64,000 nucleotides of DNA from Symbiodinium natans (Eukaryota > Sar > Dinophyceae > Suessiales > Symbiodiniaceae), in the NCBI GenBank assembly GCA_905221605.1, contig CAJNDS010000480.1:766939-830938 (forward strand), written 5' to 3'. The number at the start of each line of letters is the position of its first letter. Positions within the stretch are counted from its first letter, which is position 1. The notes under the pieces were generated by a model, which ran no database searches, was not told the origin of the DNA, and worked only from the letters and a program-made list of their open reading frames with translations. The position numbers and the translations under genes are program-made. Of the stretch, positions 149-42,459 are shown one piece after another.

Positions 149-3100
149 GCTTGGTAGGCTCTTGGGACATTGTTTCTTTTTTCCCTTATGGGGCTTAAGA
201 GGGTCATATTGAGGAACCCTAAAGCCTAAACCCTAAACCCTAAACCCTAAGGGCCCTAGGAATGATCAGCTCCACGTCGACAACGGCAGCCTGTTGGAGA
301 GCGTGGCCCTCTTCGAGGGTGACCTGGGCAAGGTCGCCGACCGACATGCGCAGCTCATCGGGCACGTGAACAAGAAGCAAAAGATCCGCTACACCGTGAA
401 GCTCAAGGAACTACGATTTGCTTAGGTGCCCCCCTGAAAAAACACGGAAAAGTAGTCCTTTATATGGCTCTGGTAAGGAAGGATCTTTTCATTTTGGCCC
501 TTTTTAAGGAACTGCTTGTTCCTATGTATTTTGGGTTCTTAAACCCTAAACCCTACGCCCTAACCCTAAACCCGAAACCCTAAACCCTGAAACAAATCGT
601 CGAGGAGGAGTGTGCGCAGCTACGCTTGGACTTGAACAAGGCCCGCCACAAGCTGATGCAGCTGGAAGGCAGCCGCAGAAGCGATAGCCTGCACTTCGGC
701 TTATTGTTAGGGTTTTAGGGTTTAGGGTTTAGGGTTTAGGGTTTGGGGTTTGGGGTTTGGGGTTTGGGCTTTAGGGTTTCGGGTTTATGGTTACTAGGGG
801 TATTGAAGGAACTCAAGGGCTTATATAGGGGGGATATACGGTGCCCTATAGCAGTCTAGAATCCTTTTTACACGCGGGGGATACGAGGTATCCCATTGAA
901 TCCTTTTGAAAGGTTTCATAGGGGGACATAAGCCCCCCGTAAACCCTGTAAGCCCCGCAACACCCTCTAAGCCCTAGAAGCCCTGCAGACCTCGAAGCCC
1001 TCACCCCTAAACCCTAAACCCCAAACCCTAAACCCGAACCCCTAAACCCTAAACCCTCAACCTCGATGCCCTCCAACCTCAAGGTACGGAGCCCTCGCTT
1101 CCTTGGGCTACTCGCCCGTCCCCGCCATCACCTCGTCGCCGCAGCCGAAGCCGAGAGGACAGGACCAAAGCCCAGCGAGCCCCCCGCAGAAGCTTGGCTA
1201 ACGGCCCAGCCTTACTTAAGGAAGTAAACCCTAAACCCTATTATTGTTTAAGGAATATTCCTTAATTAAGGGGTATTGGAGTCCCTGGGGGTTTGGGGTT
1301 TAGGGTTAGGTCTAGGCTTTAGGGCCTCGGGTTTTGGGATCTGCGTTTGCGGGTTTGGGGTTTGGGGCAGGGTTTCGGATTTAGGGGCGTAGTAGATCGG
1401 CCTGTTTACTTATCTAGCTTTGTAGTCGAATAGTCTAGTATCAGGGTCTTAAGTACAGAGTATTGGTCACGAAGGCTCCTGTATTGCCATCCCTGGGATA
1501 AAAACCCTAGCTTTCCTAGAGAGAGAGTAGGTTCATACATAACGCGGGCTCCTCTGTCGGCTCCAATTATACTGTACTGGAACCCATTGGTAGCATATGG
1601 GGGATCCTCCAAATTAGGGTCCCTTTAGGGGTTACCATTCTCTGGCGGCCCCTATGATGTAGGGTACCCAGAAAGGGACCATGATTTTGAGAAAACCTGT
1701 ACAGTTTGGAGAGCTGACAATGACTGGGAGGCTTCCTAGGGCACATAGGCGAAGTGCTGCAGGCCACAGAACTTTACGTATGTTCAGCGTTGAGGCTTTG
1801 CCTAGAGTAATCCTTCACTTTAGAACATGGGGGGGGGATAAATCGACAGTGCTTTAGGACATAAGCCATCGAGTGTTGAGATTTTCTGAAGTCCTCCAGC
1901 TCGACTCGTATAGCCCCAGCCTTCTTAGCCTTACACCCGAGGTCCAACAAAGCCCTAAACACTGTAACCCTAAACCCTAGACCCTAAATCCCTAAACCCT
2001 AAGCTTTAAACCAAAAAAGCGAACCCTCACACTCAGAGAAAAAACCTTAGCTAACTCCCCTTCAAACCCTGAAACCCTTACTGTAGAAACTGCCCAACCC
2101 ACTTATAGGCCTCCCAAATGGTTGCCCTAAAACCTAAACCCTAAAACCCTAAAACCCTAAAACCCTAAAACCCTAAAACCCTAAAACCCTAAACTCTAAA
2201 CCCTAATCCTAAAACCCCAAACCCGAATTCCAAAGCCCTTACTAAACCCTACAAGCCCTAAACTCTAAAACCCCAAACCCCAAACCCCAAACCCCAAACC
2301 CCAAACCCCAAACCCCAAACCCCAAACCCCAAACCCCAAACCCCAAACCCCAAACCCCAAACCCCAACCCCAAACCCCCAACCCCAAACCCCAAACCCCA
2401 AACCCCAAACCCCAAACCCCAAACCCCAAACCCCAAACCCCAAACCCTAAACCCTAAACCCTAAACCCTAAACCCTAAACCCTAAACCCTAAACCCTAAA
2501 CCCTAAACCCTAAACCCGAAGCTGAGGCAGCTCCCGCCACCCACGCGCGTGAGCCCCAAAGGAGCTCCAGCCCGGCCCGAGGAGGCGCAACATCTCGGGA
2601 TCTTCGGGTTTAGGGTTTAGGGTTTAGGGTTTAGGGTTTAGGGTTTCGGAGGGTTCAGGGTGTAGGGTTTAGGGCTCAGGGTTCAGGATTTCGGAGGGTT
2701 TAGGGTGTAGGGCTTGGGGTTCAGGATTTGGGGTTCGTGGTTTGGATTAGGGTTTGGTGTTCAGGGTTTAGAGTTCTGGGTTCAGGGCTTAGGGGGTTTA
2801 GGGTTTGGCTGATCCTCCGATTTCATTCTTAAGGGGTGCCTTCATGCGCTAAACACCTCATGAGAGGCTTCGGCTTTTCGTTTGTTTTTTGGGATTCGGG
2901 GCATAGGGTGGAGGGTTAGGGTCCAGGGTTTTAGGATGTTAGGATGGTAGGGAGTTGGCAGGAGTTGTGGGTTCGGGTCTGGCCCCAGCCCCCCAGCCCC
3001 CCCGCCACCAACCCGCAAGTAGCCTTGTAACAACAAACTCAAAGGGTCCATGTACCTCTGTAGTAGATACTTGGGCCTTAAAGGGGTTCCTTTCTAGTAG

Positions 3101-6100
3101 CTTTAGGGGCCAAGTATATACTATATAGGTACATGGATCCTTAGGGAAAGGTCGCTGGGTAGCTTGACTACAAGCTAAGCCCGAAGCCCGACATGTAACT
3201 TAGTGGATGCTGATGCAGCTATTTACAAGCATAAATGTACAAACTACTCAATAGCCCACTAGGTATCCTTCTAGGTTTTTTGGGCAAAGCTGAAACCCAA
3301 CAAGACGTGGAAGTTGAAACCCGCTTGGCGGCCAAGGTCCCGGACACCTGACGTTTAGGGTTTAGGTTTATAGTTTATAGTTTAGGGTTTAGGGTTTAGG
3401 ATTGGGGTTCCTTTCGGCTTAGGCTTACATTCTTGTTTCCTCCGTTCGGCTTGTCTACGACGCTTCGAAGCTATCTTTGCTGCCTCTGGGTTGTGGGTAA
3501 TTTGGCTCAGGGTTCTTCTGCGGTTTTTTTGGGGGGTCTCCACTGCGATAGCCACCCTAAGCATTAAACCCTAACGTTTAGGGTTTAGGGTTTTGGGTTT
3601 AGGGCTTAGGGCTTAGGGCTTAGGGTTTAGGACTAAACCCAAGGCCTAAACCCCAAGCCACATCCTGCAAGCACAAGCCCGGAGGCTCAGAGGCGACTGC
3701 GACTTCAGGAGTGTGCTTTGGAGCGGGCCCCTGCCTCAGACGCCACTTCTCTTTCGATTGAAGGGCTTTAGGGCTTTAGGCATTGTAGGGTTTTTTAGGG
3801 TTTTTTTTAGGGCTTTTGGGGTTTTCAGGGTTTTCAGGGTTTTTAGGGTTTTTAGGGTTTAGAGGGTTTAGAGGGTTTGGAGGGTTTAGAGGGTTTAGCG
3901 GGTTTGTGAGTCTTGGGGCGGCTGCTTTACGTCCTTGTCTTCAAAAAGTGGGGGGGCGCTGGCTGGCCTCACTCAAGTTTTTTGTTCCGTAGCTTCGAAC
4001 CAAGAAGCCGAAGGACTCTTTAGGGTGTTGGGTTCAGGGTTAAGGATTTGGGGGTTTCGGTTTTTTGGGTGTAGGGTTTAAGATTTTGGGGGTTTCGGTT
4101 TTAGGGTTTGGGGTTTATGTTTTAGGGTTTAGAGCCTTTAGGGGTTAGTCAGGAATGGGAGACTCGCAACACGAAATTGACGTCGGACACATCCTGCACG
4201 GATCCTTACGGGTCTTGTTGAGCTGAGGGCCTTGATTGTGGGCGTCCGCCAAACAGCAACAAAGGGGTAAGTATTCTTGGGTTACTACAACAAGGATTCT
4301 CGTACGTCCGCCCCTTATGATTCAAGGAAGTTCTCAAGTAGGTCAGAAGCCCACCACCAGAACCAGAACTTGAACTTGCAACCTTTGCACCCTGAAGCCT
4401 AAAACCCTAGATATGCAAGGCCAAGCCGCCACACAGCCACAAAAGCCGGAGACGCCTTTGATCCATCGACCTCAACCCCCCTAAACTCTGCAAACCATAA
4501 GCCCGAAGCCCTGAGGCTTTGCGGGTGAGCCCCAGCCATCCCAAACACCCGGAAACCTGTCGACATCCTAAACCCGGTTAAACCGCCCTAAACACAAACA
4601 TCCCCCAAAAAGCCCACCTAAACCCTAAAGCCTAACCCTAAACCCTAAACCCTAAACCCTAAACCCTAAACCCTACACCCAGGTCAACTCTGATTTCCGG
4701 CACCTGCTCACCCTGGTGCAGCGCGTGATCGGCCGAAGCACTGACGAGCGCAAGGAGACGTCGGGTTCAACTGAAGGTTTAGGGTTTAGGGTTTAGGGTT
4801 TAGGGTTTAGGGTTTAGGGTTTAGGGTTTAGGGTTTAGGGCTGCTAACCCTAAGGGTCCATGTACCTATGTAGTCTATGCTTGGGCCTTAAAGGGGTTCC
4901 CATGTAGTATAGTAACTTTGGGGGCCCGAGTCGATGCCATATAGGTACATGGACCCAAGGGTAACACCTGGAACACCAGTGCTTTCAAAGCCTGAAACGG
5001 CTTCATGACCCTAAACCCTAAACCCTAAACCCTAAACCCTAAACCCTAAACCCTAAACCCTAAACCCTAAACCCTAAGGCCCTGTATGGGAGAACAGCCC
5101 CCTGCAGCCTGATTCAAGCTTTTCCAGGTTTCGGGTTTCGGCGAACACGGCAAATTCCCAGAAAATGGGATCTCCCCGCCCGAGTTCAGAAATCTAGCAT
5201 CGTCCCCCTTGTAAAAAGACAGGAGACGACAAAATGGAACTCCAACCCTAAACCCTCTTACTGGTTCTAGGAGAAAACGAGAGAATTCGGTTCTCCATGT
5301 AATCCCTACTTAAAGGCCTGCTGCTGCCCCCCATGGATCATCGAGTCATCCCAGAGGTCAAAACACATTTCAAGAGCTTTCGGGTTGAGGGTGTTAGGGT
5401 GTTAGGGTGTTAGGGTGTTAGGGTGTTAGGGTTTAGGGTTTGGGGTTTAGGGTTTAGGGTTTTAGGTTTAGGGTTTAGGGTGTAGGGTTGAGGGTGTTAG
5501 GGTTGAGGGTTGAGGGTTGAGGGTTTTAGTGTGTTAGCGTTTAGGGCGCTGGGCTTTGGGTTCAGATTCATCTAGCCCAGGCTGGGTGCGCGCACTTTAG
5601 CGTTTAGGGTTTAGGGTTTAGGGTTCCAACCTTGGGCCAGCTTAGGCTTTCGGAAGGTTGCTCTTTGCATCGCCAAATATCGTAGAGCAACAAGAAAAAA
5701 AGGGGTTTCTGAGGGAAAGCATCCCTAAACCCTAAACCCGAAGCCCTAAACCCGAAGCCCTAAACCCTAAACGCTAAACCCTAAACCCTAAACCCTAAAC
5801 CCTAAACCCTAAACCCTAAACCCTAAACCTTGCATGCCTGAGGAGATCAACTTCGCCGACTTGCTCCAAGACCTGCGACAGGTCATGGCAGCCCAGGCTC
5901 ACCAGAGCGTTGGCAGCCGGATGCTGTGCCCCTGTTAGGGTTTAGGGTTTAGGGTTTAGGGTTTAGGGTTTAGGGTTTAGGGTTTAGGGTTTAGGGTTTA
6001 GGGTTTAGGGTTTAGGGTTTAGGGGTTGAGGTTCAGGGGCCCCCAGGGCTCTTAGGTCTTCAATGAATGGGCTTGTTGAACTGCGTCTTGAAGGGCTTTA

Positions 6101-9100
6101 TCAGAACCAAAACAGTCCTATAAGGGGGGGTTGACCTTTCTTTAGGCTGTAGTGTCTCTTTGGCTTCACTGATTAGGGACATGTTTTTTTGCGTCATTTG
6201 TTCAATCGTCCCGACTCTACGAAGACGAAGAGAAGCCTTTTCAGATTTGCTGGTTGCGAGCCCGAGAACGACAGCCAGTCAAGTCCTGTGCCCCTCCAAG
6301 GAGTGGCCGCCTAAGCCCTAAACCCTAAACCCTAAACCCTAAACCCTAAACCCTAAACCCTAAACCCTAAACCCTAAACCCTAAACCCTAAACCCTAAAC
6401 CCTAAACCCATACGAACTAGGCCTAAGGGACCTTCAACCTATTCTAGAGACTAGGGCTACCCCTTCTTACAACATGCACCCATGGGGCTGTCGGCTTGCC
6501 GACCTCACGGAATGGAATTCCATGTCAAACTGTAGACCCCTAACCCCTATAGACCCCCAATCCCCCAACCCTTAAACCCCAAACCCTAAACCCTAAACCC
6601 CAAACCCCAAACCCTAAACCCTAAACCCCAAACCCTAAACCCTAAACCCTCAACCGCAGGGTGGCAACCACAGGTTGACTGAAAGAAACATACAGTGCAA
6701 GGAGGGAAGTGGAAGTCACTACCTTAAGGACCACATGAACCCCAAAAGGGGTTAGGGTTCATTTACACTCTAGTAGGGATTTAGGGTTTAGGGTTGAGGG
6801 TTGAGGGTTTAGGGTTTAGGGTTTAGGGTTTAGGGGACAGTAGTATTGGGTATATGGACCCAACTTTAGGGCTCATTTGGTCCTTAAGGTATGGGTCGCA
6901 TCCTTGGTGTGGATGCAGCTACGAATGATGCCCTAAGCAGCCCTGCACATCGCTGTCGCAGCCGGCACCCTGAAAAGATATAGGGGTTTCCGAGAACAAG
7001 GGACCCCCGATATAGACCCCCAACTTAGAAAGACTCCCTTAGAGTCAGGACCCCGATAAGGTACCCCGCTAATTTCGGCAACACCCATAGCGGTGCGCCA
7101 TCCTAGGACGGATGCCAGCTCTGTCAAGAAGGAGCCAAAGGAGGCGAAGGAGCCGTCGACACCACGAGCGCGAGATAGCTTGGCTTCGCCCCTGAGCCTC
7201 CGCCTGAGCTCACAGCCACCGGCGTCAGAGGAGCCACGTCCAGTGCAGGACCGGGAGTAGGCCCTTTTGTCCTTTTTTTAGGGTTGGGGTTCCCTTATAA
7301 TCCCCTTAAAACCAAGAAGGGCACCCTTTTTATTCCTATATTACTCCCGGGTCTAGTTGCCCTGTTTCTTACTGGCTCGTAAATCGGAAGTTTTGGGAAT
7401 TCGGTTACCTACATCGCAGGAACCCCGTTGTTTAGGGCTGAAGGTTCAAGGTCAAGGTCGACATCTAGCTGCATTTTGAGGCTTAGCCTAGGGTCCGTTG
7501 CAAGCAAAAGATCCAAAGCCTGTTTTTTGTATAGGTGACTCCTCCGGCGCCCTTTTTGTTGAAGGACTTAGGCTCACCTTAGCCACCAGAAAAAGTTCGC
7601 AGTATCGTCTTGGACTCCCAGGGCAGTTCGATGCTCCCTTTGGCCCCTGGCCTTCTTGCAAGGGTTCCCCGATCCAGGGGCCATAGTAAGGGGCCATGTA
7701 CCCGAACTCTAAACCCTAAGCCCTGAACCCCATACGCGGAACCCCAAACCCTAAACCCTAAACCCTAAACCCTAAACCCTAAACTACCCCTACAAAAGGA
7801 CAAGGAGAACCAGCTGAACGTCCAGAACCAGACTGAGGGCGAGATGGGCAGAGCCGCCACACCCGAGACTCACGAGGCGCTCCAAGTTGGGTTTTTGGGT
7901 GTTGAGGGTTTAGGGCTAGGGTTTAGGGTTTAGGGTTTAGGGTTTAGGGTTTAGGGTTTAGGGTTTAGGGGTTTAGGGGTTTAGGGGTTTAGGGGTTTAG
8001 GGGTTTAGGGGTTTAGGGGTTTAGGGGTTTAGGGGTTTAGGGGTTTAGGGGTTTAGGGGTTTAGGGGTTTAGGGGTTTAGGGTTTAGGGCTAGGGTGTTG
8101 AGGGTTTAGAGGTTTTCGGGCATTTTTCGGGCTTTGGTAATGTTGGGGTTTTACGTCTTTCCGCTTCAAGCTGATTGCAAGAAACCCTTCCTCTTAAGCC
8201 CCAAGCCCCAAACCCTAAACCCTACGGCCAAAAACCCCTGAAGCCCCTTAAGGCGGTGAGGAAGGGTGGCCCTAAACCCGAAACCCTAAACCCTGAAACC
8301 CTGAAGCCCCTTCAGGCGGTGAGGAAGGTGATGAAGCAGATCAACTTCGCCCTCAGCTTTGGTGCGCGCAAGCTCTACGGCCGCCCCATCCAAGATGCGC
8401 GCAGCTTCTTCGAAGCCTTGGACCGACCCTGAGCCTGCCATCAGGGGTTTAGGGTTTAGGGTTTAGGGTTTAGGGTTTGGGCGGGAAGTTAGGGTTTAGG
8501 GTTTTAGTCTTTCGGGCCTTTAGCGTTTTGGAGTTTTCGGATTTAGGGCCTTTGGGTTTAGGGATTGTGGCTTGGGGCTTTGAAATTACCCTTTACTCTC
8601 CCTCCCCCCCCTCAACGCTGATCAAGAAGGGCCTTTCACCCCGTGACTTTACGGTCACGGCCCATAAGACCAAAACCCTAAACCCGAAACCCTAAACCCG
8701 AAACCCTAAACCCTGAACCCTAAACCCTAAACCCTATAAACCCTAAACTCTAAACCCTAAACCCTACCCCCAAACCCTCGACCCGGACGCCGCCTCAGGA
8801 CACGGAAACGGCGCGCTGGAGCGCAAGGACATCGCACAGGGCTGCTCTGGCTCAGGGTTTAGGGTTTAGGGTTTAGGGTTTTGGGCTGCCGGAGTGGCCT
8901 TGGTCCGCTAAGCCCTTAAGCCCAACAAAAACAATTTCCCGAGAACCCTAAAAGCCCTAAACCCTAAAACCGTAAATTTCAACCCGTAAATCCTGAACCC
9001 TATACCACTGCCGCTTTTCCTAATATAGGGGTCGGAAGAATTACGAATAATACTCCCTTAGGGTCCCTATACATAACTATACTATGAAACCCCCCCTCCC

Positions 9101-17601: not shown

Positions 17602-17713
17602 ACCTTTCGGGTTCAGGGCTTACTTTTTTGTTTTTTGTTTTAGGGTTCCTTTCAAGTACGGTTTCGGATTTAGAGGTTCAAGTAGTCCCAAATCTTAAGC
17701 CGAATCCTCTTCG

Positions 17714-17783
17714 GGTTTAGGGTTTAGGGTTTAGGGTTTAGGGTTTAGGGTTTAGGGTTTAGGGTTTAGAGTTTAGGGTTCAG
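17714..17783 (+). repeat. TTTAGGG array before a candidate exon
   Basis: Nine units ending GGGTTCAG, which serves as the acceptor of the next exon. This is one of the few arrays in G orientation upstream of an exon. Confidence 0.85.
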
Positions 17784-17847
17784 GAGCATGGACGCCTTGG
17801 CCTCACGCCTGGGACGTTTCGAGGCAGAGCTTGAGGCCCGTGTGCGG
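17784..17847 (+). CDS. Gene B exon B1: coiled coil
   Basis: The acceptor is TTCAG followed by G. Encodes SMDALASRLGRFEAELEARV followed by R, a clear amphipathic heptad pattern. A GA donor at 17848 comes just before an in-frame TAA. It ends in phase 0, matching B2. Confidence 0.45.
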
Positions 17848-20800: not shown

Positions 20801-23800
20801 AGGATTTTGGGTAAAGGGCTTTAGGGTTCAGGGTTTAGCGTTTAGGGGTTTTGGGGTGCAGCGGTTCAGGGTTTGGGGGTTGGGGATCCTGGGTGAACCA
20901 TTGTTCCATATGCAGTTTGCAGCGCTGGGGTGAGGTATGGGAGGAGCTAGAGCCCCTTCATACGATGATTCACCCCCCCCCCCCCCACCCAAACCCTAAA
21001 CCCTGAGCCCTAAACCCTGAACCCTGAACCCTGAACCCTGAACTCTGAACCCTGAACCCTGAACCCTGAACCCTAAACCCTGAACCCTAAACCCTAAGCC
21101 CTAAGCCCTAAACCCTGAACCCTGAACCCTAAACCCGAAACGCTAAACCCTTATATGGGATCCGGGAATCCGGCATTCGTGGACTGCAAATGGGACCAAG
21201 CAGGGAAGTAGCGTTTAGGGTTTAGGGTTTAGGGTTCAGGGTTTAGGGGGGCTGGCATTGGCAGTGTATGAGAGCCTGGCCGAACTGAACCCTGCACCTT
21301 ATATCCCTGGTCCTAAATGAGCCTGAAAACAGTAGGCTCCCAAACCCCTTAAACCCTAAACCCTAAACCCTAAACCTTAAACCCTAAACCCTAAACCGGC
21401 TTTGCAGGTCTTGCAACTCCACGGCCAGAGCCTTCCTCCACCGGAGTCTGCTCCCATCGCCCCGGGCAAGGCAAGGAAGTCGTTGGGGCTTGTTGTTTAG
21501 GGTTTAGGGTTTAGGTTTCAGGTTTCAGGTTTTAGGGTTTAAGGTTTAGGGTTACAGGTTATGGGTTCTATGGGGTATTGGGTGCATGGTTCGTGGTTTG
21601 CGGCTCAAGCCGAAACCCTACTCATCCCATCATAACTCGAGTTCCCTAAACCTTAAACCCTAAACGCTACACCCTAAACACCAATCCCTAAACCTCAAAC
21701 CCTAAACCCTAAACTCTCGGGCTCTTTGGGGCGCCCTTAAGGTAAGCCTTCACACGCGCCGTAGAGGAACTTCAGCATGGGCCACATCTCTAGCTCAATG
21801 GGACTGTAATGAGTCTCCCTAAGGTTTGGGGTTTAGGGTTCAGGGTTTAGGGTAATATAAAACTACCCCTCAGGGCCCATGAACCTCATTCTTATTTGGG
21901 CCCTAAAGTCCCTAAATAGGAGGTACATGAAGGCCCAAGTATTCCCTATTTAGGTACATGGACCCTTAGGGTCTCAATCCTCTAGGGTTTGGGGTTTAGG
22001 TTGGGTGTTGGGGTTTTGGGGGTTTTAGGGTCAGGGTTTAGGGTTTGAGGGCTTGAGGGCTTTAGGGATTCAGGGACTTTAGGGTTTAGAGTTTAGGGTC
22101 CTCAAGCCTGAAGCTCGGGGTTCAGGGCTTTGGGCTTTTGATTGCTGAAGCCCTAAACGGCTTCAGATATGGGTGGAACTCCCAGCCCTATGCGCCCTAA
22201 TCCTGACCATACAAGCAAACCCTAAACCCTAAATCCTAAACCCTAAACCCTAAACCCTAAAGCCCTAAGCATCTCAACCCTAAAACCTAAAAATCCCGGA
22301 GCCCTAAACTGCCCTAAGACCGACAGCTCTAGCACCCTCAAGCATGCAAACCCCAAACCCTCAATTGCCCTAAGCCCAAATCCAGAGCCGTCCCAAAAAA
22401 AGAGTACGAAGAACAGCAGCAGCTTCTTTCTGTAGCTATCGTCATAGAAAGCTTAACAGTGTCATTTCACCAATACTAATTATCTAGCAACAATAAGACA
22501 TGAAACGAGAATGATGTAAATCACCCTAAACCCTAAACCCCAAACCCTAAGCCCCAAACCCCAAACCCTGACCCCCAAACCCCAAACCCCAAACCCCAAA
22601 CCCCAAACCCCAAACCCCAAACCCCAAACCCCAAACCCCAAATCCTAACAGAAGGGTGCGCTGTGGGGCCTGCGTTTTTGAAACGCTCTTCGTTGAAGAT
22701 TCCGTTGTTTGAGGTTGGATGGGCGAAGTTAAGTAGTTGAACTATACTAAGGTTAGATGGGCGTGGTTGACTGTCATACGTTACTGGTTAGGTAAGGTTA
22801 ACTTGATTTCTTATGGTTCATTTTTATAGAGTTTTTTTTGTGTAGAGGACCCCCCCCCCCCGCCCCCCCACCCCCCCCACCCCCACCCCCCCCCCCACCC
22901 CCCCCCCCCCCCCCACACCCCCCCCCCCCCCCCCCCCCCCCCCTCCCCCCCCCCTCCCCTCGCCCAGGTGCCTGGATATAAAATCTTTAAAATTTAATTG
23001 GAACTCTATTGAAATTTTAAAGGTTTCAAGGTTTTAAAGCCTTTAAATTCCTTTAAAACCTTTAAAATTTAAATGGAAGTCCAATTAAATTTTAAAGGGC
23101 GCGGGCCCCCTTTAAAATCTTTAAAATCATTAAAATCTTCAAAATCTTTAAAATTTAATTGGACCTCCATTTAAATTTACATGGTTGTAAAGGTTTTAAA
23201 GCCTTTAAATTCCATTAAAACCTTTAAAATCTACTTGGGGAGGCCCTCAATTAAATTTTAAAGGGGCGGGCCCCCCCTTGAAAATCTTTAAAATCCTTGA
23301 ATTTACTTGGACCTCCATTTAAATTTAAATTGTTTTAAAGGTTTTAAAGCCTTTAAATTCCTTTATAAAATTTACTTGGGGAGGCCCTCAATTAAATTTT
23401 AAAGAGGGTGGGCCCCCTTTAAAATCTTTAAAACCTTTAAAATTTATTTGGACCTCCATTTAAATTTTCAAGGTTTTAAAGGTTTTGAAAGCCTTTAAAT
23501 TCCTTTAAAACCTTTAAAATTTAAATGGAGGTCCAATTAAATTTTAAAGATTTTAAAGATTTTAAAGGGGGCCCGTCCCCTTTAAAATTAAATTGGGGGC
23601 CTCCCCAAATAAATTTTACAGGTTTTAGAGGAATTTAAAGGCTTTAAAACCGTTAAAACCTTTTAAATTTAAATGGAGATTTTAAAGATTTTAAAGGGGG
23701 CCCCTCCCCTTTAAAATTTAATTGAGGGCCTCTCCAATTAAATCTTAAAGGTTTTAAAGGAAGTTAAAGGCTTTAAATTTTTATCCTGTGTATGCGCGCG

Positions 23801-26614
23801 TGCTTGTAAATATAGAGTATCCGGGATAAAGAGTGTCATGTGCATGCACACCTGCTTTATAAACACTTGTGCCCTGCAAAAACACTAAAAAAAACACAGG
23901 CCCCACAGCGCACCGCCCTCAATCCTAAACCCTAAACCCTAAACCAAGATGCAATTCAGCCTTACCAAACCCTAAACCCTAAACCCTAAACCCTAAACCG
24001 GGATGCAATCAGCCTTACCATATATAAACCCTAAAGCCCAAAGCCCAAAGCCTAAACCCTAAACCCTAAACCCTAAACCCTAAACCCTAAACCCTAAACC
24101 CTAAACCCTAAACCCTAAGCCAGGATGCAATTCAGCCTTGGGTCCGGCTCTTCGAGCGCGAGCTCGAGGCCGTGCGCCGCTGTGCGGAGAGCTACGAGGA
24201 GAGTGGCGTAGGGACCTTTGGGTTGCGGGGGGGTTTAGGGTTTAGGGTTTAGGGCTAGGGTTTAGGGTTTAGGGTTTAGGGTTTAGGGTTTAGGGTTTAG
24301 GGTTTAGGGTTTAGGGTTTAGGTTTAGGGTTTAGGGGTTAGGGGTTAGGGGTTTAGAGGGTGGAGGGTGTTTAGGGTGTTTTGGGTTTGGGGTTAAGCAG
24401 GTTTCGCCTAGGGTTGAGTGGCTTCTGTATTCCGGGCCTGCCTTGATCCCCCAAAGTACCCAGAATCATCACCTTTGGACCCCGCAAAACAACTGGGTCT
24501 ACGTGGCCCTTTGAGTTTCCAGGTATGCAAAGTTGCGGGGTAGGCTTCAGGGGGTAGGGTGGACCTTTTGGGAAGTAACGTTGGTGGATTTGTCATGGGT
24601 TCCCCTACTATACCCCTCTATACTACGCCCCCAGGTTCCCTCCGTAATTAAGGCTACTTAGGGCTAGTTAAGCCTAATGAAGGTTTTGTAAGGGGGGAAG
24701 CTAGGCTAGGTGGGGGGGGGGGTGTTATAGAGGGGGGCCGTAGGGAAACCCATGGTTTTGAGATTTTGGGCGTTTGAGGGTTGAGAGCAAACCTCGGGAA
24801 GTATAGTTCGGATCTCGGGAGATTTCGAGCCCGGCGAAAGAGTTTTGGGTGCATGCTACTTCGCTGCCTGGGTAAGAAGAGGGGGGTAGGGTGGGACGCG
24901 CCGGCCTGAGGGGCCACCAGCCTTTGCACACCCTAAACCCTAAACCCTAGCCCTAAACCCTAAACCCATGTTAGACCCCAAGAGCCTCATATGGACAGTT
25001 TCTCGAATTTGTAGCCCCCATTCGGTTCCCCCTTTTGTAAAGCGGAGCCTCAAGAACCCTTAACCCCAGTGCCCACGCAGTAAAAGCCCTAAACCCTAAA
25101 CCCTAAACCCTAAACCCTAAACCCTAAACCCTAAACCCTATACCCTATACCCTATACCTATACCCTATAAACTCTAAACCCAAATAGGAGACCTTGAGTC
25201 CGGCGATTGACGGTTCATGTGGAAGCCATCAACCTTTTGAGCACTGAACTGGAAGCCTCCCCCCTAGGGGTATCTGAAACGAGGTTTTAGGGTTTAGGGT
25301 TTAGGGTTTAGGGTTTAGGGTTTAGGGTTTAGGGCTAACCCTTTTGAGCACTGAACTTGAAGCCTCCGCCCTAGGGGGAAAAAACCGTTTAGGGTCTCGG
25401 GTTTAGGGTTTATCCCAAAGGGTCCATGTACCTAAATAAGGAATACTTGGGCCTTCAAGTACCTCCTATTTTGGGACTTTGGTACGGGACCCTTAGGGGC
25501 AGTGTTATGTTACCCTAAACCCTAAACCCTAAACCCTAAACCCTAAACCCTAAACCCTAAACCCCTAAACCCTAAACCCTAAACTCTAAACCCTAAACCT
25601 GCACCCTTAGAAATATACCTCCAAGCATCGAATACCTACAGCAGTAGGGAGGCTTGGGGATCCTTTGAGGCAGGCTGAGGGACCCGGAAGAGTGCCTGAT
25701 TACAGAGTTTAGGGTTTAGGGTTTTTGGTTTGGGGTTTAGGGTTTAGGGTTTCGGGTTTGGGGTTTGGGGTTTGGGGTTTAGGGTTTAGGAACCCAAAGC
25801 TTGCAGCTTCATGGCCCTTGACGCCTGCGGCTTCGAAAGCCCAGTAGGAGCCGCTGTCCATCCTCGACCATCGCGTGGCACGTTTGGAGAGCGTAGCCCA
25901 TGCCTCGGCTCGGCGGGCTGTGCTGGTGGATTCTCATTTATTTTAGGGTTTGGGGATTCGGGGTTAGGGGTTTAGGGTTTAGGGGGGTTGGGGTGGTGGG
26001 GGGGGGGGGGTGTGTGGGGGGGGGGGGGTGGGGGGGGGGGGTGGGGGGTGGGGGGGGGTGTGTCTGGGGGGGGGGGGGGGGGGGGGGGGGGTGTGTGTTT
26101 TTTTGTGGTTGCCAGACATCGCGGATGGTTCCAACGTGAGCCTGAGCTTCAGAAAGTCCTCGTCCTCTGTCCTTAAATCACCTAGGACCGATCTCCAAGA
26201 AGCAAGTGGCTGCCATTCTTCACTCTTCACCCTGCACCGCAAACACACGACCCCAAACAGCCTTTGCCCCCCCCCCCCCCCCCTTCCCCGCCCCTTCCTG
26301 CCAACAGCAGATGGGTAATGACCAACCAAAACCCGGTCCTCCTTTCTCTAGGTTGGCTTTCGGGGTATTTTATGTTTTCCTTATTTGGTTTTATAGGGGC
26401 CCCTGTATGCGTGTCTGCATGTGTATATAACTACTGTGTGTAGTATATAATAACATAATTGTCATTGCTAATTGCGATTATAATTGGTTACATATATATA
26501 TATATATATACATATATAGTCTTGAAGACGATGTAGTCCCACTCTGTGAACTCACCGACGACGAAGTAGGCAAAGAAACGATAATACTGGCCACGCAAGC
26601 TGAGCCTATAAATA

Positions 26615-26648
<34 letters not shown>

Positions 26649-29600
26649 TATATGTCTAATTGTGTGTGTGTGAAATCCCGGAGTTGCGGAGCTTCCTACA
26701 TCCCGACTCGCTAATCCTCCCGGAAACCCTGTAAACACCAATGCCCAAGACCCTCGAAAACCTAAGCTCATCAACCCTAGACCCCTAAACCGTACCCTAA
26801 ACTCCACCCCTAAAGCCTAAGCTCCTAAACCCAAAACCCTAAACCCTAAACTTCAAGAGGCGTTGCCAGAGTCCGGACGCGATCTGGATGAGCTGGTGCC
26901 GCCAAAGGGGGGACATCTGGTGGGTTTTCGGTCTAGGGTTTAGGGTTTAGGGTTTCATGCCATATTGGCAGTTCTCCAAACTAGGGTCCTACGTGCTTCT
27001 GATGAGGGAACCCTAGTTCCGAGCACTACCCATACAACTTGGGGGTTTTGGGCCTACATCCAGGGCTGAGGGCTTTTAATTCCAAACCCAAAGCCCTAGA
27101 CCGTAAACCCCAAAGCTACCCCCGCCCACCCGCCACCCCCCCCAAAAGGAAAAAATCACAGGACTTCGCATCCGAATACACTGAAAGCCTAACCTTGGAA
27201 CCCATGTCATCATGGCCAAAGTACATTTTTTGGGGGGTATTTGGGCTTGTGACGCTGGATGTCTTGCCGGCAGGAGGATTCAAGGAATGTCTAACCAGCC
27301 TGTGATATGTGGTGCTGGTGGGGGGGGGGGGGGGGGTGGAGAGCGCAGAAGCAATAAGGACGGGTTCTTAAACCTATACCTCCTATTACCACAATGGAAC
27401 GTATGACTCTGAGGGAACCTCAGAGAACCCTAAACCCTGAACCCTAAACCCTAAACCCTAAACCCTAAACCCTGAACCCTGAACCCTGAACCCTAAACCC
27501 TAAAGAGTAGTGAAACCGTGAACTCTCAACCCTGGAGGCGGAGCTGGTCTTGGAAGAGCTTCGGGCGTTGCAGCTGCAGGCCAACTTGCTGGTTAATCGG
27601 GACCCTTGTTTGCGATTCCCTCTATTCATGTATTTGTTTGTTTATTCATTCATTCATTTATCTTTTTATCATCTATTTATTTGTGTTTTTCCTATGGTGA
27701 GGGGGGGGGGGGCTCAATTCTCGGATGATATCGCTACCCCGAGGTGCCCAAAAAAAACGAACCTACAATTGGTTCAGGTAGGGTTTAGGTATTAGGGCCT
27801 ACACGTTTTGGGCCTGGGGATTCGGGGTTTGGGGTCGTGGAAGGTTTTGAGGAGTTAGCAGGGGGAGTTGGGAGGGTTGTAGTGTTGCAGGCTGTAGGGT
27901 TGTGGTCGTAGGGCTCAGGGTTTTGGGCATAGGTTGGGATGTTTCCCCTTATACTGACAGTCTTTGAAAGGGACTAGAACAGACGGGGGAACTTCCCCAG
28001 GCATAGGGTTTAGATGCAAGCTTCGGTCCTTACCCTTCGACTCGTACCGCTGGTGGGTTTAGGGTCTAGGGTTTAGGGTTTAGGGTTTAGGGTTTAGGGT
28101 TTAGGGTTTACGGCTGTTACCTGTAGCGCGAAACCCCAGAAACTGAAAGTCAGCACCGAAAAATCTCGGGTATGTACAACCCGCCCCCTACCCCCCCCCC
28201 AACCCACTTGTGCCCGAAACCCTAAACCCCAAACCCTGAACCCTCAACCCTCAACCCCAAACCCTAAACCCACTTTTCGGTGGTTTTGCGCGGGGGAAAG
28301 AGCATAACGCAAGCTTTCTGACGTACTCAGTGACTCCAATCCTCTCTTCAACCCAACGCCTAAAAACCCTTGGGGACATAAGCCCCAACTTCCCCAAAGG
28401 TTTAGGGTTTAGGGTTTAGGGGTTTACGGTTTAGGGTTTAGGGTTTAGGGTTTAGGGTTTAGGGTTTAGGGAAGGTTTTGTGTTCATGTCGTTGTTCAGG
28501 GTTTAACCCTCAAAGCCCTGCCAGAGAGTCTGGCAAACCTCTTACGTAGCATCTAGGAAGGCCTTTGGGGTACTTGGAGGTTCATGGCACTTACTAACCA
28601 ATTATAGCTGTACTTATCACCCTCTTATAAGCCCCCTAAGTGGCCTAATATGGTTATAAGTACATTTTCAAGTACAGTTATATTTGGTTAATAAGTAAGT
28701 ACCATGAAATTCCAAGTTTGTCATAGCTTCCCTTATGTAGTTTAAGAGGGCTATATTGAGGAAATGTGTTTCAGAGGGTTTTAAGGGCCCATCCCAGACA
28801 AGTAAAATTCATGCCTGCAAATAGCTTCAACTCATGCAGAGACTCATAGGTGCTTAATGGGAAGGTAACTTTTCCCACCGAACCCACCCATGAAGTGTCT
28901 AGCTCAATGCGTCTTTCTCTACGCAAGTGGCATTGGGCCCCCAAACCTACTTTTGTTGTAGGTAGTTACGGTATTACGTTGTTATTATAAACCCTCATAG
29001 GATTCTTAGGTAACCTACAAAACAGCAAGTTTTGTTTTGGGTCCTTGACTCTAAACCCTAAACCCCAAAACCCGACACCCGAACTTGCTGCCACAGCGAC
29101 AGGTGAATAGCTTGGCTGCCGCCGATCGGCCCACGGGCCGCATGCCGGACATCGATTGGGGTTCAGGGTCAGGGTTTAGGGTTTAGGGCTCAGGGTTTAG
29201 GGTTTAGGGCACTAGGGTCCCGAACCCCTGGATGCGAAACCCTAGAGCCTTCAACCTTGAACCAATACTTTTCGCATCATCGGTTTGCAAGTTTGGCTGA
29301 ACGGCATTGTTGCGAGCACTGGCTGCGGCAGCAACCCTGCAGAAACCATTCACAGTGCGTGGCTGATCGACTCGGCAGGTGGGCGTTCGGCCTTGGGTGA
29401 AGTTCTTGGAGCGATGCAAAACCTGTATGCTGACCATTGCTTGGATTCCTTTGATTGGAACAACTCCGACGCCCGCGGTGGATTTGCAAAGCGTGGATGG
29501 TTGATCCCACACAGCTGCACGGAATGCAGACTCTAAGACTCTAAGTTCAGTTCACCCTAAAACCTACACCCTAAGCCCTTAACCCTTAACCCTTAAACCC

Positions 29601-32373
29601 TAAATACCCTAAACCCTAAACCCTAACAGTCCACCGCGATGGAACTCTATTCGTAGCCGCACTGAGCTGAGCCCGTCCTTCCACATTTTGCGACATTTAC
29701 GACATTGAGCCGGAGCCCTAAACCCTAAACCCTAAACCCTAAACCCTGAACCCTGAACCCTGAACCCTGAACCCTAAACCCTAAACCCTAAACCCTAAAC
29801 CAGACAGGAAAGCCCCAGAACAGACTGAGGGTTACAGGATACCCGGCTCAGGGTGTCGGGGATGAAGGGGGGAGCGGCCAGGGGTGTTCGGGATTGCTGA
29901 GAGGTTGAGGTTTGAGGGTAGTGCTTAGGGTTTAGGGTTTAGGGTTTAGGGTTTAGGGTTTAGGCTTTAGGGTTTAGGGTTCAATCTTTAGGGTTTAGGG
30001 TTTATGGCGTAGGAGTATGAAGGTTTACTGCCTTAGGTGCGAAGACTTTGTTACTCTCAAGCATATACTGATATCCGGAGCCCTAATCCGGGAGCTTGCA
30101 TCATACGCCCATGACTAAACTACATGTGGCTTGTGGCAGAGCATGCATGGGCATGTATTCTTTTCAGAATCTGAAAATCAGAGGCCTCACAAAAATGCCT
30201 ATGTTGTGCAACAGAAACAGAGGCTATTCCACCTGGTATTCACGGCACAGGCACGTCATGTCCCACTCATTTCGGGGTGGGGGAGGGGGGGGGGGTGGGG
30301 GGGGTGGGGGTTGTTCTGTTTGTAAGGGTCATCCTTAGTAATCCTTGTCTGGCAGCTGTGTTGAGCTTTGTTGCAGCATGTGGGGGTTGGATCACCCTCG
30401 TGGTCCTCTTTGCTGATTTGTTGATGTTAACTGTTGCGTTGTTGATGTTAACTTGTAACATGCATGCCTGCAGCCGCTGAACACCTACACCTCAATACAC
30501 TAAATCCCCAAAGCTCACAACACCCCCAGAAGTCCTCAAAAGACCCTAAACCCTAAGCCCTAAACCCTCAACCCTAACACAACAAGCCCTATATCCTAAC
30601 CCCCCAAACCGTAAACCACTCAAATCCGCAGGAACATCTTCAGCCGCAGAGGGCTTTGGAAGATCGGGGCACCCAGCGCGCAGGCGCGCCCGCCCTTGTG
30701 CTGTGCAGGGGCTTTGGGTTTCGGGGTTCATACAAGGGTTTCATAGGGGTTGTGAGGGTTTAAATGCTTTAGGGCTTCGGGTGTAATCGCTGTTCTGAAT
30801 GGGGTTTAAGATGCTTTAGGGCTTCGTTGTTTTTTATCAGGGCTTTAATAGGGTTTATGAGGTTGAGTTTGGGTTTATAAGGGTTTCAGGGTTTAGGATT
30901 TATGGAAGGGGCTTTGGGACCTATAAGGACCCAGAGAGAAGGTTGTAAGTCTAACTGGTAGACTTAAGGGGTTGATGCTGTATGCCGCGGCAATGCATCA
31001 CTATTTGGGTTCACCGGGTTGCGGGCTTGTAGGGCAGGGCCTTTGGGGTTTAGGGTTCGCAGACTCCACCATGTCGTGTGTATCGGGAGTGTGGAGGTGT
31101 TTTGGGCCTCAGGGTGTTTAGGGTCTGTTGGCTTGCCGGTTGTCAATGTTTGGCGGTTTAGGGTTTAGGGTTTAGGGTTTAGAGTTCAGAGCTGATAGCC
31201 CTATGCCTTCAGGACGTGCTTTCAAGAGGGTCGGGATATGGGTTTAGGGTTCTTGTTTAGGGCGGGTCCTCCTTAGGTATTCCTAATACAGTCGAAGAAC
31301 TGTATCTACTCCCCACCCGAAAACATACCGCGAGCCCTGAATATCCCTGAATCATTTTCGGAAGCCAAGAATCCTAAACCCTAGCATATAGGGCGGGGCC
31401 CGAACACTAGAGCCACCTAAGTTCAAACCATAGGACCCGAATTCTGAGCCCCCTCAGCCCCTCAGCCCTAAGAGGCTCCTCGGAAAATGCTTCCGGTTTA
31501 ACTAGGGTTTTAGGGTTTAGAGTTTCGCTGTTGAGTTTAGGATTGAGGTTTTGGGGTTGAGGGCCGGTACGGCCCCCCAAACCGGTCCCAAAGCTCAGAT
31601 GATGTGCCGGCCACTCACAGCAAGCGGTCGCCTGTGAGCGCGGCTCTGAGCCTGGTTCCTGTAAATATTTGGTTGGCGAGACCGTGGTGAGTATGGGCTG
31701 TGGAAGCTGCCGAATTTGAGATTCTGGGGTGTACTGGTTATATGCTGGTGGTCTGAAAGCCCTGAACCCTAAACCCTAAACCCGAAACGGATGGTTTGAT
31801 GGCCTAGGGTTTGCTTGCCAGGGTTTTTCTTGTGCTCCTCGTCTACACGACGGACTCTTGCAAACTCTACACGAGCTGTAGTTTCATTCCGTCCAAGTCC
31901 TTCTTTCAACCCTAAACCCTAAAAAGGATGACCCTGTTCGGGTCACAGCGATAATATGACGCATACATGTGGGTGGTTTTCTAGCCTGGGCTCCTTTTTG
32001 GGCGCCCATCTAGTACGGCACCCTTTGAAAAAAGGACTTCCCAACAAGAACCCTGATTTTGAGAACTACCCCTGCACATATGAGGGTTTACGAAAATGAG
32101 GGACCCTTAATATAGACCGCCAAATAGTAGGATTCCTGTACAAGAAGGGCCCCAATAAGGTACCCCTAATTTCGGAAACCCCCAACCCTAAACCCTAAAC
32201 CCATATGTATCAGGGGTACCATTGAGCAGGGTTTAGGGTTTCGGGGTGGGGGGGAGGGTTTAGGGCTCAGGGTTTAGGGTTCAGGGTTTAGGGTTTAGGG
32301 TGTAGGGTGTTGCGGCGGCCCAGGCGCAGCTGTGGCACGAGTTGAAGCCTTCCAGCGCCTCGAGTCCATGAGT
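17784..32373 (+). CDS. Gene B (provisional): multi-exon coiled-coil protein, unidentified
   Basis: Eight short + strand exons (17784, 21408, 24136, 25848, 26860, 27538, 29103, 32324) are mutually phase-compatible, mostly phase 0 to phase 0, and mostly encode Leu/Glu/Arg heptad sequence. Seven of eight acceptors are AG followed by G. I recognise no family. Exons upstream (15.5-17.6 kb) and downstream of 32.4 kb are probable but unplaced, so start and end are unknown. Introns of up to 3.6 kb carry telomeric arrays, poly-G and TIR elements. Chance open exons in GC-rich islands could mimic part of this, so the model is tentative. Confidence 0.35.
18954..19037. mobile_element. Short inverted-repeat element, family M2 copy 2
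   Basis: Starts GGGATGTTCCCCCGTATAC and ends GGGGGAACATGCC, complementary over about 12 bases. Shares ACAGTCCTTGATAGGGACT with other copies. Confidence 0.6.
19790..19870 (-). repeat. CCCTAAA then CCCTAAAG (8-mer) array
   Basis: Two heptamers followed by about eight copies of the 8-mer AGCCCTAA, another homogeneous variant block. Confidence 0.9.
19962..20084 (+). repeat. TTTAGGG array flanked by 14-bp perfect direct repeats
   Basis: GCGTGCCGCTTTCT occurs at 19962-19975 and again at 20071-20084. The 95 bases between are almost entirely TTTAGGG units. It looks like an insertion with a target-site duplication, or a repaired break. Confidence 0.8.
20085..20600. other. Unique GC-rich stretch, possible exon(s), not resolved
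   Basis: The minus strand has a 199-codon open frame (20055-20654), but its ends are poly-Pro from a poly-G tract and telomeric repeat, and it shows no motif. The plus strand is also partly open. It may hold an exon of gene B or a separate gene; I cannot choose. Confidence 0.25.
20586..20632 (+). repeat. Poly-G tract
   Basis: Runs of G up to about 22 with few interruptions. Potential G-quadruplex, and prone to sequencing or assembly error. Confidence 0.85.
20990..21150 (-). repeat. CCCTGAA/CCCTAAA array
   Basis: About 22 units, mainly the CCCTGAA variant interspersed with CCCTAAA. Confidence 0.9.
21408..21470 (+). CDS. Gene B exon B2: Pro-rich segment
   Basis: The acceptor is TTTGCAG followed by G, after CCCTAAA units. 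Encodes VLQLHGQSLPPPESAPIAPG followed by K. The GC donor GCAAGG at 21471 gives phase 0. TTTAGGG units follow at 21496. Confidence 0.4.
21873..21965. mobile_element. Short inverted-repeat element, family M1 copy 3
   Basis: Ends GGGCCCATGAACCT and AGGTACATGGACCC. It is inverted relative to the copy at 25420-25492, with which it shares almost 60 bases at high identity. Confidence 0.6.
22504..22647 (-). repeat. CCCTAAA/CCCCAAA array
   Basis: Two CCCTAAA units followed by about fifteen CCCCAAA units. It ends directly at the left terminus of the element at 22654. Confidence 0.9.
22851..22964 (-). repeat. Poly-C tract
   Basis: About 110 bases almost entirely C, the complement of a poly-G tract; it may form quadruplex or i-motif structures. 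Confidence 0.9.
22980..23790. repeat. AT-rich foldback repeats
   Basis: Repeated CCTTTAAAATCTTTAAAATTT and AATTGGACCTCCATTTAAATTT phrases occur in one orientation up to about 23,540 and in the opposite orientation after it, interrupted by GGGCCCGCCCC-like GC patches. It can fold into a long hairpin. Confidence 0.8.
23948..24139 (+). repeat. Threefold duplication of a splice-acceptor edge within CCCTAAA arrays
   Basis: GATGCAATTCAGCCTT at 23948-23963, GATGCAATCAGCCTT at 24002-24016 and GATGCAATTCAGCCTT at 24124-24139. CCCTAAA runs separate them. The last copy contains the acceptor and first bases of exon B3. Confidence 0.8.
24136..24207 (+). CDS. Gene B exon B3: coiled coil
   Basis: Encodes PWVRLFERELEAVRRCAESY followed by EESG, strongly helical. 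GT donor (GTAGGG) at 24208. The acceptor is TTCAG followed by C, unlike the others, and it is duplicated twice upstream. TTTAGGG units follow from 24236. Confidence 0.45.
24236..24370 (+). repeat. TTTAGGG array downstream of exon B3
   Basis: About fifteen units with short deletions and a GGGGTTA variant run. Complementary to the CCCTAAA block at 24056-24118 on the other side of the exon. Confidence 0.9.
25085..25165 (-). repeat. CCCTAAA/CCCTATA array
   Basis: Eight CCCTAAA units followed by four CCCTATA variants. Confidence 0.85.
25231..25377 (+). repeat. TTTAGGG array flanked by about 40-bp direct repeats
   Basis: Positions 25231-25270 and 25336-25377 share AACCTTTTGAGCACTGAACT and AAGCCTCCCCCCTAGGGG with few differences. 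The interval between is mainly seven TTTAGGG units. This is another array with duplicated flanks. Confidence 0.75.
25420..25492. mobile_element. Short inverted-repeat element, family M1 copy 4
   Basis: Begins GGGTCCATGTACCTAAATAA and ends GGTACGGGACCC. In opposite orientation to the copy at 21873. Confidence 0.55.
25512..25600 (-). repeat. CCCTAAA array
   Basis: About twelve near-perfect units. Confidence 0.9.
25848..25916 (+). CDS. Gene B exon B4: coiled coil
   Basis: The acceptor is CAGTAG followed by G. Encodes EPLSILDHRVARLESVAHAS followed by ARR. A GC donor at 25917 is possible, or GT ten bases on. TTTGGGG/TTTAGGG units lie upstream (25706-25790) and downstream (25945-25982). Confidence 0.4.
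25982..26094 (+). repeat. Poly-G tract
   Basis: About 110 bases of G broken by single T bases. Follows TTTAGGG units without a break. Confidence 0.9.
26490..26690. repeat. TA and TG microsatellites
   Basis: (TA)n at about 26491-26515 and 26610-26653, then (TG)n at 26663-26672, with about 100 unique bases between them. Confidence 0.85.
26860..26919 (+). CDS. Gene B exon B5
   Basis: The acceptor is AAGAG followed by G, after CCCTAAA units. Encodes ALPESGRDLDELVPPKGGHL. The GT donor (GTGGGT) at 26920 gives phase 0, and TTTAGGG units follow at 26934. Confidence 0.4.
27423..27508 (-). repeat. CCCTAAA/CCCTGAA array before exon B6
   Basis: About eleven mixed units ending 30 bases before exon B6. 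Confidence 0.9.
27538..27591 (+). CDS. Gene B exon B6: coiled coil
   Basis: The acceptor is CTGGAG followed by G. Encodes AELVLEELRALQLQANLL, ideal leucine heptads. GT donor (GTTAAT) at 27592, phase 0. Confidence 0.5.
27936..27998. mobile_element. Short inverted-repeat element, family M2 copy 3
   Basis: GGGATGTTTCCCCTTATACT at the left, GGGGGAACTTCCCC at the right. Shares ACAGTCTTTGAAAGGGACT with the other M2 copies. Confidence 0.55.
28050..28475. repeat. Telomeric arrays, both orientations
   Basis: TTTAGGG units at 28057-28110, C-orientation units with CCCTCAA variants at 28218-28272, and TTTAGGG units at 28399-28470. The unique sequence between them contains no supported exon. Confidence 0.85.
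28573..28716. mobile_element. 144-bp hairpin element (family M4)
   Basis: The left arm CTTGGAGGTTCATGGCACTT... and the right arm (complement CTTGGAATTTCATGGTACTT...) pair over about 44 bases at roughly 80% identity around a TATAAGCCCCCTAAGTGGCC loop. Non-coding. Confidence 0.6.
29103..29160 (+). CDS. Gene B exon B7
   Basis: The acceptor is GCGACAG followed by G. Encodes VNSLAAADRPTGRMPDIDW plus one base. The GT donor at 29161 (GTTCAGGG) is itself telomere-like. Phase 1 is completed by exon B8. Confidence 0.4.
29285..29536 (+). CDS. Unassigned open frame, 83 codons
   Basis: Balanced amino-acid composition (for example AGGRSALGEVLGAMQNLYAD) and no low complexity, unlike most open frames nearby. 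The minus strand is also open here. I see no known motif and splice links to gene B are unclear, so it could be an exon or chance. Confidence 0.2.
   Translation: MQVWLNGIVASTGCGSNPAETIHSAWLIDSAGGRSALGEVLGAMQNLYADHCLDSFDWNNSDARGGFAKRGWLIPHSCTECRL
29711..29805 (-). repeat. CCCTAAA/CCCTGAA array
   Basis: About twelve units; G-orientation units follow at 29926-30005, with 120 unique bases between. Confidence 0.9.
30006..32080. other. Long stretch without a supported exon
   Basis: Contains a G-rich tract (30277-30310), weakly telomeric G- and C-orientation patches (30540-30620, 30720-30900, 31150-31180, 31760-31785) and otherwise unique sequence. Open frames on both strands are short and featureless. 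Confidence 0.4.
32084..32184. mobile_element. Short inverted-repeat element, family M3 copy 3
   Basis: GGGTTTACGAAAATGAGGGA at the left and TTTCGGAAACCCCC at the right, with the shared AATAAGGTACCCCTAATTTC phrase. Confidence 0.6.
32324..32373 (+). CDS. Gene B exon B8: coiled coil
   Basis: The acceptor is GCCCAG followed by G. In phase with B7 it encodes AAVARVEAFQRLESMS. The donor is uncertain (GC near 32374); the frame stays open to TGA at 32403. Confidence 0.4.
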
Positions 32374-32437
32374 GCGGGCGCGAGCGCCCGGGGCGGGGAT
32401 TCATGAGCTTGGGTGGCTCCTGAAATTATCGCGCCTT

Positions 32438-42430: not shown

Positions 42431-42459
42431 GATACGCTCGTGTTTATTCATAATGAGAT

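Follow-up and report, generated by a model that had tools for sequence, protein, structure and literature searches.

In the 64,000-nucleotide (nt) stretch of the Symbiodinium natans genome analyzed here (bases 766,939-830,938 of the 948,170-bp contig CAJNDS010000480.1; hereafter, the window), the exons of a gene that we call gene A tend to lie between telomeric arrays of opposite strand, with CCCTAAA (C-strand) repeats upstream and TTTAGGG (G-strand) repeats downstream; that is, the introns tend to carry a G-strand array near the donor and a C-strand array near the acceptor. S. natans is a free-living dinoflagellate, and 759,417,921 bases of its genome were searched. TTTAGGG has been reported as the dinoflagellate telomere unit (PMC11453091). 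Window positions 1-32,400 contained 105 arrays of at least 20 bp (53 TTTAGGG and 52 CCCTAAA), together 7,563 bp, versus just 3 such arrays beyond position 32,400, and exact three-unit 21-mers numbered 487, versus 0 in every one of 20 first-order Markov resamplings. Genome-wide, the two strands carried 1,184,385 and 1,185,204 copies of the 21-mer CCCTAAACCCTAAACCCTAAA; of the reversed pattern they had 33 and 41. Array density was patchy across six other 10-kb stretches, two of which adjoin the window (40 arrays in L009, 23 in L014, and 0 or 1 in each of the remaining four). In being nonterminal, inside contigs, and made of the species' own telomere unit, the arrays resemble interstitial telomeric sequences.

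Gene A exons and the arrays beside them

The original prediction took the islands in the left 32 kb to be exons, and matches to HMMR_C and EF-hand_7 together with an exact protein mapping bear this out. Residues 138-1073 of the protein P0001 ("Tdh [Symbiodinium natans]") match letter for letter across the 10 kb upstream and the window's first 10.6 kb; the residues before 138 lie further upstream, outside the mapped DNA. The mapped part of gene A comprises 34 exons and 33 introns. The mapping demanded introns that start with GT, GC, or GA and end with AG; 31 of the 32 junctions of the first mapping had exactly one solution, and the remaining junction was split by a small extra exon. Three islands spliced by hand gave an HMMR_C match (E 3.8e-14), four-exon islands spliced by hand gave an EF-hand pair (EF-hand_7, E 1.7e-7), and P0003, a relative's protein (755 amino acids, from a 2,562-bp contig that is probably a transcript), aligned in order with the gene A exons. 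Judged from these matches, the gene A islands are exons. For S. natans, transcript support has been reported for 83.0% of gene models, and the mean exon size is 106 bp (PMC10666404). The P0001 model joins an NAD-epimerase-like N terminus to the HMMR_C/EF-hand protein (L009 1-1200), and it may fuse two genes, because no epimerase part is present in the relatives P0002 and P0003.

Telomeric arrays were present in 31 of the 33 gene A introns (43 G-strand and 35 C-strand arrays) and made up 6,479 of the 17,759 intron bases; one array overlapped an exon, by 1 bp. The first array 3' of the donor was TTTAGGG in 25 of the 31 array-bearing introns, and the last array 5' of the acceptor was CCCTAAA in 21 of them. 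Among the 23 introns with at least two arrays, 15 had the G strand first and the C strand last (G..C), none had the reverse order (C..G), and 8 had the same strand at both ends. The combined orientation score of first and last arrays was reached by 0 of 20,000 permutations, and a within-intron pair test gave p 0.00015. Within 70 nt of the donor, TTTAGGG was found in 24 of the 33 introns versus CCCTAAA in 2, and within 50 nt of the acceptor, CCCTAAA was found in 20 versus TTTAGGG in 5, in agreement with the intron polarity that had been predicted. At these distances, both ends carried the expected strand in 13 of the 33 introns (the published introner rule is 30 nt), and 17 of the 32 internal exons had a C-strand array within 50 nt upstream together with a G-strand array within 70 nt downstream. 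The predicted placement of exons between opposite-strand arrays held.

A further claim, that introns begin with TTTAGGG, did not hold, and introns starting straight with the repeat were rejected: the array is preceded by a short donor stretch, G followed by A or C, in which positions +5 and +6 are often C and T. The distance from the donor to the start of the G-strand array had a median of 17 nt (25 introns), and that from the end of the C-strand array to the acceptor had a median of 12 nt (21 introns). By eye, a similar donor stretch opens the array-free introns of the L016 kinesin gene. The gene A donors were GA in 16 introns, GC in 15, and GT in 2, and the acceptor AG was followed by G in all 33, the donor set and the AG being imposed by the mapping; the introns fit the Symbiodiniaceae spliceosomal pattern of a G(T/C/A) donor and an AG/G acceptor. 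GA donors are apparently in excess (16, 15, and 2 of 33 for GA, GC, and GT, where the published species values are 18.4, 58, and 23.6%).

Array perfection was 0.70 for expected-strand arrays near a splice site (n = 44), 0.74 for wrong-strand arrays near a splice site (n = 5), and 0.45 for interior arrays (n = 29). The exon-side half of an array was the more perfect one (0.77 versus 0.63, p 0.012, n = 42); by strand, this polarity was found for C-strand arrays (p 0.006), with no effect for G-strand arrays (p 0.34). The splice-site arrays, being the most perfect, would be younger or better kept. Simple decay may thus not be the whole story, and the arrays may be maintained, so that a functional reading stays alive. 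The gene A features of the window, with exons placed by mapping of P0001, are as follows.

17..145, +, exon, first within the window (exact mapping; HMMR_C); the preceding intron has no array
214..252, -, CCCTAAA array, 7 nt 5' of the acceptor, intron 146-259
260..407, +, exon (HMMR_C match)
537..593, -, CCCTAAA array, 11 nt 5' of the acceptor, intron 408-604
605..690, +, exon (HMMR_C match)
710..792, +, TTTAGGG array, 19 nt inside the donor, intron 691-1083
998..1063, -, CCCTAAA array, 20 nt 5' of the acceptor, intron 691-1083
1084..1188, +, exon
2124..2522, -, CCCTAAA/CCCCAAA array, 4 nt 5' of the acceptor, intron 1189-2526
2527..2584, +, exon
2602..2809, +, TTTAGGG array, 17 nt inside the donor, intron 2585-3684
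3685..3726, +, exon
4615..4681, -, CCCTAAA array, 1 nt 5' of the acceptor, intron 3727-4682
4683..4754, +, exon
4772..4843, +, TTTAGGG array, 17 nt inside the donor, intron 4755-5842
5720..5832, -, CCCTAAA array, 10 nt 5' of the acceptor, intron 4755-5842
5843..5919, +, exon
5933..6028, +, TTTAGGG array, 13 nt inside the donor, intron 5920-7106 (whose last array is also G-strand)
7107..7248, +, exon
7704..7786, -, CCCTAAA array, 12 nt 5' of the acceptor, intron 7249-7798
7799..7876, +, exon
7899..8114, +, TTTAGGG array, 22 nt inside the donor, intron 7877-8315
8269..8300, -, CCCTAAA array, 15 nt 5' of the acceptor, intron 7877-8315
8316..8424, +, exon (EF-hand match)
8443..8507, +, TTTAGGG array, 18 nt inside the donor, intron 8425-8798
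8669..8771, -, CCCTAAA array, 27 nt 5' of the acceptor, intron 8425-8798
8799..8840, +, exon (EF-hand match, loop)
8849..8887, +, TTTAGGG array, 8 nt inside the donor, intron 8841-9167
9168..9229, +, exon (EF-hand match)
9244..9348, +, TTTAGGG array, 14 nt inside the donor, intron 9230-10002
9876..9978, -, CCCTAAA array, 24 nt 5' of the acceptor, intron 9230-10002
10003..10047, +, exon (EF-hand match, loop)
10065..10126, +, TTTAGGG array, 17 nt inside the donor, intron 10048-10563
10512..10535, -, CCCTAAA array, 28 nt 5' of the acceptor, intron 10048-10563
10564..10641, +, exon, last one mapped

Gene B and the genome-wide order of arrays

Array order taken without knowledge of exons was mildly nonrandom (CG, 39; GC, 38; GG, 31; and CC, 24). 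Genome-wide, in counts of start positions in which long arrays are counted several times, gaps of 80-110 bp between arrays were C..G at 83,227 positions versus G..C at 35,412, and at gaps of 0-20 bp the order was reversed, with G..C at 3,981 versus C..G at 1,357. Among the places listed on scaffold C1, C..G gaps scored as more coding than G..C gaps (58 versus 39 places, p 9e-8), the coding score using the sequence beyond the first two units and one string per listed place; the GC content of these gaps was 61% for C..G and 50% for G..C. In the window, L009, and L014 together, the 36 C..G gaps of 60-160 bp scored higher than the 43 others (p 9e-8). The orientation signal is carried by exon-size C..G gaps, rather than by raw array order.

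Gene B (17.8-32.4 kb) was represented by seven exon cores placed through homologs: five by tblastn with P0016 of Durusdinium trenchii, one with P0005, and one by eye, with tblastn E-values from 3e-5 to 0.03.

17788..17850, +, exon core, G-strand array just upstream (exception); tblastn P0016, E 0.005
21408..21450, +, exon core, C-strand array 9 nt upstream; by eye from P0016 residues VLQLQGP plus the gene finder, no tblastn match
24139..24201, +, exon core, C-strand array upstream and G-strand array downstream; tblastn P0016, E 2.7e-5
25848..25898, +, exon core, G-strand array upstream (exception); tblastn P0016/P0017, E 0.006/0.004
26860..26895, +, exon core, C-strand array upstream and G-strand array downstream; tblastn P0016, E 0.03
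27538..27591, +, exon core, C-strand array upstream; tblastn P0005, E 0.016
32323..32391, +, exon core, G-strand array upstream (exception); tblastn P0016, E 0.011

In the six stretches between these cores, the first array was G-strand in 6 of 6 and the last was C-strand in 4 of 6 (expected strand at 10 of the 12 ends); in two stretches the exon core and the first array were 455 and 463 nt apart, a distance that may hide further exons. Three exons, B1, B4, and B8, had been named as exceptions with an upstream G-strand array, and G-strand arrays were indeed found 5' of the exons at 17,788, 25,848, and 32,323, which are probably the same three. A palindromic 141-bp tandem repeat with CTTTAAAAT-like units occupies window positions 22,979-23,784, in a gene B intron.

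Origin of the oriented arrays

The explanation that we favor, tentatively, is that the arrays are inserted introner-like units with head-to-head telomeric ends, which may have made or enlarged introns. At a break, or on an inserted element, telomerase or a copying process would add telomere repeats to both 3' ends, and the repeat-extended ends would then be joined with filler, giving the G..C orientation. The repeated unit would be on the intron side, starting with (TTTAGGG)n and ending with (CCCTAAA)n just within the splice signals, and exons between C-strand and G-strand arrays would be a by-product. Both the insertion and a part for telomerase are what we infer here, and a function of the arrays in RNA would be dispensable. 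Insertion fits best because an excess of tight G..C junctions is combined with a two-sided bias, and a cause at one splice site alone is disfavored because both ends are biased (24 versus 2 and 20 versus 5). In mammals, telomeric array insertion during break repair, with telomerase involved in some cases, has been inferred (PMC2246262). Direct repeats were found at the intron borders: in 24 of the 33 gene A introns the next exon opens with the same two bases as the donor, the border repeats of the 33 introns summed to 130 nt where shuffling the acceptors gave 96.2 nt on average and never reached that sum in 5,000 trials, and repeats of at least 3 nt (AG/G included) occurred in 27 of 33, in keeping with the 3-5 nt expected of introners. 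If insertion is correct, the arrays would be a new kind of intron-building DNA, and intron gain would be linked with telomere maintenance; intron origin would also become testable, the arrays being easily counted and oriented and other Symbiodinium genomes being available.

Several observations weigh against this explanation. Dinoflagellate introns in general are reported to have border repeats (PMC7789003), so these repeats do not tie the arrays to insertion. No common body, such as an introner family would share, was found in the array-masked introns of a small, not genome-wide, sample, so a single transposon with the arrays as its tips does not account for the pattern. The distance from the donor to the first G-strand array varied (3-66 nt in 24 of 25 introns and 292 nt in one), 13 of the 31 array-bearing introns had arrays of a single strand only, and expected-strand splice-site arrays were more perfect than all others when matched for length (p 9e-5). 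The orientation was also examined at kinesin exons, which were not chosen by their arrays: 122 of 218 candidates were scored, and from 98 profile matches 40 short ones with 300-bp flanks were picked by hand (the first 20 ranked by E-value, isolated, and <140 bp and the second 20 from the mixed rest), with loci L015-L020 outside the count and a few matches containing stop codons that may not be exons. Any array lay within 300 bp of 16 of the 40 matches; the nearest arrays were of the expected strand in 13 of 20 cases within 150 bp (p 0.13; C-strand upstream, 7 versus 4, and G-strand downstream, 6 versus 3) and in 14 of 24 within 300 bp (p 0.27). In addition, a C-strand array comes after a kinesin exon that the gene finder called in L061, and G-strand arrays precede the first exon of L015. 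The orientation is a bias, not a rule; the bias at kinesin exons has the same direction but is weak, and gene A is a strong example. The PF00005 profile, with 20 matches mostly in long open frames, was set aside.

Alternatively, the arrays might be kept by selection for base pairing of UUUAGGG with CCCUAAA in the pre-mRNA, which would join the donor and acceptor of one intron, much as has been proposed for the hairpin introners of Amoebophrya. The strands are complementary, the 13 introns with both arrays as expected could pair in this way, and the high perfection of the splice-site arrays would follow. However, pairing of this kind, which the original prediction had proposed, is not favored: it is impossible within the 13 single-strand introns, and when variant repeats were compared between an intron's donor-side and acceptor-side arrays, they matched no better than shuffled ones (0.115 versus 0.112, p 0.44, n = 15). 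The lengths of an intron's two arrays showed no matching either (p 0.52, n = 15). When 28 intron-exon-intron segments (up to 600 nt on each side) were folded with ViennaRNA, a model that G-quadruplexes lie outside, array pairing across the exon came to 1,122 versus 481 + 382 (863) inside the introns, with 11 segments favoring across-exon pairing, 11 within-intron pairing, and 6 neither; such pairing across exons, at least equal to that within introns, would favor exon skipping or circles. We consider selection for pairing unlikely. A wider form of the functional view is doubtful as well. In it, the telomeric repeats of S. natans would be a working component of introns that the cell keeps up: telomerase or recombination would renew the arrays next to splice sites, with one orientation preferred, and the arrays would help to define introns or to heal breaks at exon borders. 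If true, the telomere repeat would have a second use, spread across introns.

It is likewise improbable that insertion was random in strand and that selection on splicing retained only harmless arrays. This idea follows from the letters of the repeats, the C strand being without AG and offering CTAAA near the acceptor and the G strand (TTTAG/GG) being a decoy acceptor, and a G follows the acceptor in all 33 mapped introns. Yet the donor side, where a C-strand array is no decoy, is at least as biased (24 versus 2), and 5 of 33 introns carry a G-strand array within 50 nt of the acceptor; avoidance of decoy AGs as the sole cause was rejected because of the donor-side bias. The inverted ends and the border direct repeats would also be accounted for by an introner family of the classical cut-and-paste kind in which telomeric units chanced to form the terminal inverted repeats and slippage expanded them later. 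But the sampled introns have no shared body and no clear common tip beyond the donor signal, and we regard such a family as quite improbable. An assembly artifact or misplaced telomere reads might be suspected in a hybrid long- and short-read assembly of a repeat-rich genome; this is very improbable, however, as the exons that flank the arrays are intact and belong to a published gene, the scaffold is 948 kb long, and just one array in gene A overlaps an exon, by a single base pair.

Known systems and neighboring sequences

Introns capped with telomere repeats had been suspected to be undescribed, and among the matches listed no report of them was found in the open-access literature, subscription papers lying outside this search; the main text of the S. 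natans genome paper (PMC8045281) has no mention of "telomer" or "introner." The introners described for dinoflagellates (Amoebophrya, PMC7789003; Prorocentrum and relatives, PMC10666404) resemble the present case in their border direct repeats and non-GT donors and, as far as the 13 introns with both expected arrays go, in their inverted repeats near both intron ends. Unlike them, the inverted ends in S. natans are telomeric tandem arrays of ~20-400 bp, present in many introns regardless of body and often at one end only. Introners have been published for Symbiodinium in 4% of genes (PMC11114475), and these counts may include such arrays unrecognized as telomeric, the rule given in PMC10666404 being partly satisfiable by them. 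The interstitial telomeric sequences of break repair reported in PMC2246262 are also short internal arrays of similar length; the mammalian cases there are single arrays, stated not to be products of telomere fusion, whereas the S. natans telomeric 21-mer has >2.3 million copies and the arrays of the two genes studied are intronic and oriented relative to the exons. For annotation, caution is needed: more than one-third of the intron sequence of one gene is telomeric, which affects repeat masking, gene models, and telomere counts. Head-to-head telomere fusion sites read G strand and then C strand. The S. natans arrays are like them in this order and unlike them in occurring many times per gene, usually with filler.

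With the arrays masked, the sampled introns share several palindromic elements of ~100 bp, and the same elements occur in kinesin introns. In the window, elements of several families lie at the following positions.

3,036-3,146; 4,846-4,956; 6,978-7,077; 18,958-19,040; 21,893-21,972; 25,418-25,480; 28,578-28,708; 32,078-32,174

Palindromic elements were also seen in L017, L018, L021, and L032. By eye, one in L021 splits a TTTAGGG array at a TA, and an element within a G-strand array in this way could explain some same-strand neighbors. The kinesin introns of L017 and L019 have a CCCTAAA array ~30 nt before the acceptor; the L019 donor is without a TTTAGGG array.

A scan of a viral collection gave no match. 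Elsewhere in the window, positions 40,170-42,440 and 63,060-64,000 (running on into L010) are near-identical duplicates in which AAGCGTCTC-type repeats precede ~150-bp units, and each of these units holds one or two telomeric units (CTTGAAATTTAGGGTTTAGGGTCGCTCAAA). A degenerate satellite of ~6 kb, with a unit near CTCGAAAGGGACTAGAGAACTTGAGAAACAAGAGCAAACCG, occupies positions 48,005-53,930, apparently within one intron of a gene whose open frames lie at ~47,573-47,900 and 54,211-54,750. A stretch at 32,557-32,572 resembles the dinoflagellate spliced leader (CCATTTTTGGCTCAAG) and lies ~2 kb 5' of a long uninterrupted open frame; that frame, at 34,683-36,077, is amine oxidase-like and perhaps represents a gene copied back from mRNA.

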